Positions 1,649 to 12,872 of a stretch of 32,056 nucleotides of DNA are shown piece after piece (within the stretch, counting starts at the first letter, position 1; every line of letters starts with the position of its first letter). The DNA is taken from contig CAIWWH010000154.1 of assembly GCA_903916385.1 (NCBI GenBank), forward strand, positions 1 through 32,056, written 5' to 3'. Under the pieces are notes generated by a model. That model searched no databases. It saw nothing but the letters and a program-made list of their open reading frames with translations, and was not told the origin of the DNA. A program made the position numbers and the translations under genes. Source of the DNA: an uncultured Actinomycetes bacterium. GTDB lineage: Bacteria; Actinomycetota; Actinomycetes; Nanopelagicales; Nanopelagicaceae.

Positions 1649-1830
1649 AACTCTTCCTCTCTAGAAAAGAATGCTTTTACAAGAGGGGTAAGTCGCGCGC
1701 AAAAACAGACCCCCCAAATATGGGTGGGTATCTTCTTGACCAATCAGCCAAGGCCGATGAGGTGGGAGCGACGAACTCCACTTGTTGGGGTAAGGATACC
1801 CCGAAGGCGCGCAAAGGGAGAAATCGGTGG
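1649..1830 (-). promoter_or_regulatory. Structured infC leader with competing hairpins
   Basis: The 182 bases between the fabI stop and the infC start hold ordered structures on the minus strand. Hairpin A is a perfect 6-bp stem with a 4-base loop (1802-1787, GGGGTA-TCCT-TACCCC). Hairpin B is a bulged stem near 1781-1762 (GTGGAG with CTCCCAC). Next comes a terminator-like stem at 1729-1709 followed by T5. The 7-base GATACCC at 1732-1726 can pair either with GGGTATC at 1801-1795 or, in part, within the terminator, so the two folds exclude each other. This resembles an attenuator. The controlling ligand is unknown; L20 is a candidate by analogy with other bacteria. Confidence 0.6.
1701..1729 (-). 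terminator. Probable intrinsic terminator/attenuator in the infC leader
   Basis: On the minus strand ACCCACCC (1729-1722) pairs with GGGGGGT (1715-1709) with one bulged A and the six-base loop ATATTT. CTG and then five T residues (1705-1701) follow. It lies about 55 bases before the infC start, so it would stop leader transcripts rather than end an operon. Confidence 0.55.
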
Positions 1831-11972: not shown

Positions 11973-12872
11973 GTGAATCTAGCCAGCCTGATCTACACGG
12001 CGCTCGTCATCCTGCAAGTAGGAATCATCCTCACCGGAGGCGCTGTCAGACTCACAGGTTCGGGACTCGGCTGCCCCACCTGGCCGCAGTGCGTATCGGG
12101 TTCGATTGCTCCGGTCCCCCATCAGGCTCAGGGCACCCTGCACTCGTGGATTGAATTTGGAAATCGCCTATTGACGGTTCTCTTGGTAATCGCGGTCATC
12201 GCGGCTGTTATCGGAGCTTTCCGTTGGGGCAAAGGGCGCGGAGACTGGAAGATGATCCGGCTGCTCGCCCTCACCCAAATCGTGGGGATTGTCGCTCAGA
12301 TCGTGCTGGGCGGGATTACGGTTCTTACAAAGCTCAACCCCTTTACCGTCTCAGCTCACTTCTTACTATCCATCGCATTGATTCCTCCAACTCTCTCGCT
12401 GCGCGAACGCATCTATGCCAAAGCGCGCACCGACGTATTGCCCACTACTCGACTATTGATTCGCAGCGTGACGCTCCTCAGTCTCATCGTCATCACCCTT
12501 GGAACAGTTGTTACTGGATCCGGTCCGCATGCCGGTGATATTCAAGCCAAGCGCTATCACATCGATCCGCGCACGATCTCATGGATTCACGCAGACGCTG
12601 TAATCGCATTGATCGGCCTCACCATTGCGCTCTTCCTCGTCATCAAGGTTTCCGAGCCGCTACCCATCCAATCCTTCATCGGTAAGAAGGTCCTTCTCTT
12701 CTTGGCAATCTGTCTGGGACAGGGCTTGATTGGTTACATCCAATATTTCACTCACCTGCCTGAAGCACTTGTCGCCGCGCACTTACTCGGAGCTGGATTG
12801 ATCTGGCTCTCCGTGTGGAACATCGCCTTCAAGGCCAATGCATTTAGTCGCCAGCCGTTAATCAACAGTTAA
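11973..12872 (+). CDS. ctaA: Heme A synthase (COX15/CtaA family)
   Basis: This membrane enzyme oxidises heme O to heme A for cytochrome aa3 oxidase. The 299-residue protein has about eight hydrophobic helices in two four-helix halves. Conserved residues are visible: Cys34/Cys40 in GLGCPTWPQC, a pair known to form a disulfide in the family; His57 and Glu61 in HSWIEFGNR; and His129, His206 and His270 as likely heme ligands. GSGPHAGD (182-189) is also typical. The GTG start is leaderless by prediction. ctaB, usually the neighbour between this gene and tkt in actinobacteria, is absent; only 71 bases separate the two genes. It is divergent from sufR. Confidence 0.94.
   Translation: MNLASLIYTALVILQVGIILTGGAVRLTGSGLGCPTWPQCVSGSIAPVPHQAQGTLHSWIEFGNRLLTVLLVIAVIAAVIGAFRWGKGRGDWKMIRLLALTQIVGIVAQIVLGGITVLTKLNPFTVSAHFLLSIALIPPTLSLRERIYAKARTDVLPTTRLLIRSVTLLSLIVITLGTVVTGSGPHAGDIQAKRYHIDPRTISWIHADAVIALIGLTIALFLVIKVSEPLPIQSFIGKKVLLFLAICLGQGLIGYIQYFTHLPEALVAAHLLGAGLIWLSVWNIAFKANAFSRQPLINS

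Follow-up and report, generated by a model that had tools for sequence, protein, structure and literature searches.

The L20 leader preceding infC in Bacillus subtilis is represented in Rfam by RF00558, whose alignment runs in the order AAG-hairpin-C-gCC...GGc. In a 2013 survey, this motif was reported to be confined to the Firmicutes and Thermotogales (PMC3766115); a later study describes other L20 scaffolds in Gamma- and Deltaproteobacteria (PMC7247131). For the deltaproteobacterial r-leader candidate, the later study proposes an AA dimer together with two G-C pairs in succession as the determinants of L20 recognition (Eckert and Weinberg 2020, PMC7247131). In Streptomyces ambofaciens, the homologue of the Streptomyces RNA Scr1601 (RF02830) is placed among the UTRs (PMC8388888). 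Our search, confined to the open-access literature, yielded no paper that we recognised as dealing with actinobacterial attenuation of infC or by L20.

The window, by which we mean the whole stretch of 32,056 nt analysed, is one contig of a small actinobacterial genome (1.35 Mb). Complete Planktophila genomes and MAGs bearing the name Candidatus Nanopelagicaceae are among the named genomes closest to it, and for this reason we refer to its family as the Nanopelagicaceae. Three MAG records (L049, L059 and L063) are titled Streptomycetaceae or Streptomyces griseus, yet their infC genes and leaders are of the Nanopelagicaceae type, and the titles look wrong. On the minus strand, to which all leader features described here belong, two short-chain dehydrogenase-like genes (fabG-like and fabI-like) are followed by infC (IF-3, 1052-1648), rpmI (L35, 768-965) and rplT (L20, 393-755, the presumed source of the regulator). 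The infC start codon is the AUC at 1648-1646 and not the ATG at 1540; the protein has the Pfam domains IF3_N and IF3_C, and the IF3_N match begins at residue 7 when translation is counted from this AUC. The AUC start is conserved, occurring in 129 of the 143 actinobacterial leaders with a further 7 assigned by position. GTC is found in five family members and ATA in one actinobacterial leader. The Shine-Dalgarno (SD) region, AGAGAGGAAGAG (1651-1662), is nearly invariant among the closest relatives.

Our comparison started from 171 loci, and the leader counts cover the 143 that remained once 28 (27 alphaproteobacterial loci and L084, which is the same record as L144) had been set aside. These are loci rather than species, as L001 and L002 both correspond to the window and several other pairs come from the same contig. 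The 97 leaders of the family are distinct sequences, and the family membership of named contigs was assigned partly from infC identity.

The leader folds better than shuffled sequences (z of -3.16 for 1640-1840 and -2.92 for the predicted transcript, 1786-1646), in agreement with an earlier note on this DNA that had described a structured infC leader. That note had GATACCC (1732-1726) choosing between an upstream hairpin, hairpin A, and the stem of a U5-tailed terminator. All of the elements are present in the letters, with GGGGTATCCTTACCCC at 1802-1787, GATACCC and the U5-tailed hairpin at 1729-1701, but the choice between them does not hold up among relatives. Of 16 close relatives, the window itself among them, just one has the 7-bp match of GATACCC with GGGTATC, and L011 reaches seven pairs only with wobbles and in a different register. 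Among the 40 family leaders with ATC or AAC directly before the core's AAG, the window alone has a 6-bp hairpin where hairpin A lies (1787-1802), the others having 2-5 bp. Every one of these 40 leaders has a TANNNT starting 14-16 nt ahead of AAG, and position -3 is A in all of them. In the window, the hexamer is TATCCT (1793-1798), with a conserved box, GATTTC (1825-1820), upstream of it. TANNNT looks like a -10 box and is likely to direct transcription from about the A at 1786, 7 nt downstream of it. Because hairpin A lies over this TANNNT, which is present in 40 of 40 leaders and has the invariant A after it, the 5' arm of the hairpin is most likely untranscribed promoter DNA rather than RNA. 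Hairpin A was rejected as an RNA element on the strength of the conserved TANNNT and of a GATACCC pairing private to the window, and competition between it and the terminator stem is very improbable even though the 7-nt complement exists. Compensatory changes in relatives, whose absence the earlier note had named as a refutation, are missing from that note's helices; they are found in the core and in a long-range helix instead.

The core begins directly after the putative transcript start and occupies 1738-1784. It has the form AAGU-[P1]-C-ACC-[P2]-GGU in the window and AAGN-[P1]-C-ACC-[P2]-GGU in general. P1 (1765-1779) pairs 1779-1775 with 1769-1765, and P2 (1739-1763) pairs ACC (1763-1761) with GGU (1741-1739) and AUCGGC (1758-1753) with GCUGAU (1748-1743). 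A descriptor of this core matches 139 of the 143 actinobacterial infC leaders; of the four that it misses, two are truncated at the end of their contig, and the other two, L137 and L160, keep a shorter version with AAGNGGAGAAATCCCACC. We aligned 42 sequences (alignment A1) chosen by hand from the 114 core sequences listed, taking only family members and leaving out near-duplicates. Their 14-pair structure has a covariation of 0.258, compared with 0.120 for shuffled alignments, and 89% of cells are paired, compared with 32-54% when the structure is slid. A second alignment (A2), of 26 sequences chosen by hand from 33 listed core sequences of other families and classes after seven long or odd ones had been left out, has changes on both sides in all five pairs of P1, whose pairs were counted in both alignments.

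The pattern AAG-stem-one base-NCC is found in 34 of 60 leaders from other families of the phylum, against a null of 4.6% from two-base-block shuffles, and 37 leaders from other families have the complete layout, CACC...GG[T/C]. Leaders outside the family form a series from AAGNAGAAGC..GCUUCUCACC through AAGNGGGGC..GCUCCCACC to AAGUGGAG..CUCCCACC. In one subclade (L016, L017, L019, L020 and L023), P2 is enlarged to about 50-62 nt and carries a long conserved arm, GATTATYTGAG...ATAATC.

Two covariance models were built from these leaders. The family model, R1, has a single match in the window's own genome, the infC leader core (1734-1786, E 8.4e-20). It finds 6 of 28 distant leaders outside the family at E up to 1, and 7 of its 17 genome matches across the phylum lie before infC while 10 lie elsewhere; it was set aside as a phylum-wide detector, being too narrow and unspecific. 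The second model, R2, was built from 26 leaders of other families and high-GC relatives, with neither Nanopelagicaceae nor leaders hit by RF00558 among them, and was run against 22 family leaders, 17 RF00558-hit leaders and L093. R2 finds all 22 Nanopelagicaceae leaders offered and 15 of the 17 RF00558-hit leaders, the weakest being L236 at E 0.39, and gives no match in L093, L240 or L246. Its best match in the 32-kb window is the infC leader core at 1784-1738 on the minus strand (E 1.3e-5). The next, at 12015-12060 on the plus strand (16.6 bits, E 0.047), is probably due to chance.

The known L20 model does not pick out the site. An Rfam scan of the window at gathering scores returned no match, RF00558 and RF02830 included, and in a relaxed scan of the leader the sole hit was to an lncRNA model without relation to it (E 1.3), with RF00558 absent even at E 5. 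RF00558 was also without a match in the window's own genome and in 12 genomes of the same class that were drawn. In the phylum, 26 of 149 genomes have RF00558 matches, one of them above the cut-off, and 26 of the 28 matches lie directly before infC (the genome draws for RF00558 and R1 share genomes). Two of the RF00558-hit genomes have a T-box leader about 1.2 kb from the L20 leader on the same strand (L172, 82-315; L173, 53-277). Judged from their sequences, elements related to the window's core precede infC in many other actinobacteria, and most of these elements escape the standard model. Scr1601, an sRNA family of Streptomyces, is, by the same kind of comparison, this leader too: three leaders from 8-10 Mb genomes, L162, L176 and L179, score 171-184 bits against RF02830. 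Since RF02830 is the infC leader in these three, the Scr1601 "sRNA" is probably its terminated form.

Mutually exclusive folds, which the earlier note had expected in this cis-regulatory leader, do appear to be conserved before infC-rpmI-rplT, with partners other than hairpin A and GATACCC. GUCGC (1768-1772), from the loop and 3' arm of P1, is the 5' strand of a co-varying long-range helix whose 3' partner is GCGAC (1692-1696). In the minimum-energy fold, the helix extends to 1785-1768 paired with 1679-1696. A perfect downstream complement of the P1-loop 5-mer is found in 74 of the 97 distinct family leaders, whereas 10000 permutations gave a mean of 26.5 and a maximum of 41; permutation tests of this kind ignore kinship and so overstate significance. 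Twelve of the 23 leaders without a perfect partner keep a match containing G-U pairs downstream, not always in the homologous place. A tree of 96 leaders, based on a 195-nt stretch of infC, has 23 changes of the 5-mer, whose partner switches along with it at separate places (L041 beside L053, L113/L114, L123, L120, L070 and L130-L133). L011 and L012, which lie beside the window's clade, have the G-U intermediate GUCGC:GCGGC. The long-range duplex has a family mean of -17.5 kcal/mol, compared with -13.5 (sd 0.31) for permuted pairs. Because P1 and the long-range helix share bases, nested minimum-energy folds cannot show both, and among the folds of 86 leaders the long-range helix appears in 48, P1 in 23, neither in 15 and both in none. 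As predicted structures, P1 and the long-range helix exclude each other.

The distant strand of this helix overlaps a strand predicted to be able to cover the infC SD. In the window, the anti-SD strand GACUUACCCCUC (GACUU..CCCUC, 1694-1683) pairs with GAGAGG..GAGUU (1661-1649), up to the start codon. Across the family, the helix between the distant strand and the SD region averages -11.3, compared with -9.4 (sd 0.26) for permuted pairs, and 0 of 2000 permutations were as low. Changed letters on both sides of this helix are seen in L048, where CTCCTTGCGGT faces ACCGAAGGAG, and in L064, where CCTATGCGGT faces ACCGAACATAGG. The SD hairpin of the window is weak (-12.2 kcal/mol, z -1.11) and not unusually stable alone. 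Within the window's clade, the SD helix can hardly co-vary because the SD is nearly invariant there. From these pairings, the true exclusive choice in the leader is that between P1 and a long-range helix reaching past the U-tailed hairpin, and it bears on the SD and not on the terminator.

The terminator-like U5-tailed hairpin itself, P3 (1701-1729), is real and specific to the window's clade. Five or more T in a row are found in 15 of the clade's 16 leaders, compared with 3 of the 70 others in the family for which a partner was identified. The stem of P3 has an A bulge and is separated from the U-run by a 3-nt spacer, a consensus terminator scan did not flag P3, and the U-run has a further possible partner in the CAAGAA that directly follows P2. 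The competing upstream structure that would make it an attenuator did not emerge: an antiterminator for the 5' arm of P3, sought by eye in the clade sequences, was not consistently found. Because P1, P2 and P3 form side by side when 1786-1701 is folded, ahead of the U-run, nothing was found that makes P3 conditional.

We consider it probable that the RNA ahead of infC is a divergent ribosomal leader of the L20 type that switches between P1 and the long-range helix, with anti-SD control of infC. The ligand would be ribosomal protein L20, because of the layout, because the AA with two C-G pairs resembles the determinants set out in PMC7247131 and because rplT is in the operon. L20, encoded in the same operon, would bind AAG, P1 and P2. 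When L20 is scarce, the long-range helix would form and hold the anti-SD, so that infC is translated; when it is in excess, P1 would be locked, the anti-SD (1694-1683) would pair with the SD and the operon would be repressed. In the window's clade, P3 may add partial termination. We infer both this direction of control and the transcript start from the arrangement of the leader.

As in Bacillus, an L20-type attenuator could instead act mainly by ending transcription at the U5 hairpin (1729-1701), with the SD pairing incidental. The retention of the U-tailed hairpin in the window's clade suits such a mechanism, and outside the family, in other classes and in high-GC relatives, P1 is complementary to strands of which several (L158, L162, L196 and L236) start a U-tailed hairpin, a logic resembling that given for B. 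subtilis L20 attenuation in PMC10931766. The pairing energies lean the same way, P1 and its own downstream strand averaging -16.3 compared with -14.9 permuted in 26 high-GC leaders (of 27 ids listed) and -17.6 compared with -15.1 in 34 others. This signal is the weaker one, because P1 pairs best with its own strand in just 4 of the 26 and 4 of the 34 leaders. We find termination as the main mechanism rather unlikely, given that P1, P2 and P3 can coexist with no conditional element found, that the co-varying partner lies after the U-run and that most of the family keeps the long-range helix while lacking a U-run. It is unlikely, too, that the core resembles L20 leaders in structure but has changed its ligand, the regulator being another factor or IF-3 itself, in view of the AUC start. 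That start codon is conserved, and control of infC by IF-3 in E. coli is stated in PMC10931766, but control at the start codon would not require a leader of this kind and might operate in addition, and the core keeps both the RF00558 layout and an AAG with two C-G pairs like the L20 sites described in PMC7247131. IF3 or L35 may also be alternative ligands of the leader.

On balance, we lean towards one ancestral L20 leader across the Actinomycetota, RF00558-like in some classes and represented by Scr1601 in Streptomyces. In the Nanopelagicaceae, its platform would have moved from termination to SD sequestration with the P1-competing helix kept, the window's clade also having a U-tailed hairpin. 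If so, a phylum-wide actinobacterial branch would provide a mechanism balancing IF-3, L35 and L20 in Streptomyces and many uncultured lineages, the Rfam sRNA family Scr1601 would be reinterpreted as a leader transcript, and the expression platform would have changed from termination to translation within one RNA family.

Among described systems, the leader looks like a divergent L20-type leader, a relative of RF00558 that the RF00558 model misses. As in the B. subtilis infC leader, it lies directly upstream of infC-rpmI-rplT, has AAG, P1, a C and a P2 closed by CC/GG in the order AAG-hairpin-C-[A]CC-hairpin-GG[U/C], and has a P1 strand that can pair with part of the platform further downstream. 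The earlier statement that the arrangement does not obviously copy known L20 leaders is not supported, since the core shares the AAG-hairpin-C-ACC...GGU layout. The letters of P1 differ (AGAAGC..GCUUCU in RF00558, GGAGU..GCUCC in the window), and the strand competing with P1 is in the 5' arm of the terminator in RF00558, whereas in the window it lies 3' of the U-run, after the U-tailed hairpin and beside the anti-SD. Because the model fails and the link to the terminator is of a different kind, we did not file the window under RF00558; RF02830, likewise without a match, was rejected as well. Scr1601 shares the position directly before infC in L162, L176 and L179 and a consensus with the layout CACaAGuGGaGG..CuCCCaCC..GGGuC and a U-tailed end. 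It differs in being filed as an sRNA, in being restricted by name to Streptomyces and in having an outer stem and a strong terminator, both absent from the window. Two further systems are likened by description only. The deltaproteobacterial L20 r-leader candidate has the same proposed determinants on a different scaffold, and the E. coli L20 translational operator, as presented in PMC10931766, shares translational control through long-range RNA pairing but controls rpmI-rplT and not infC.
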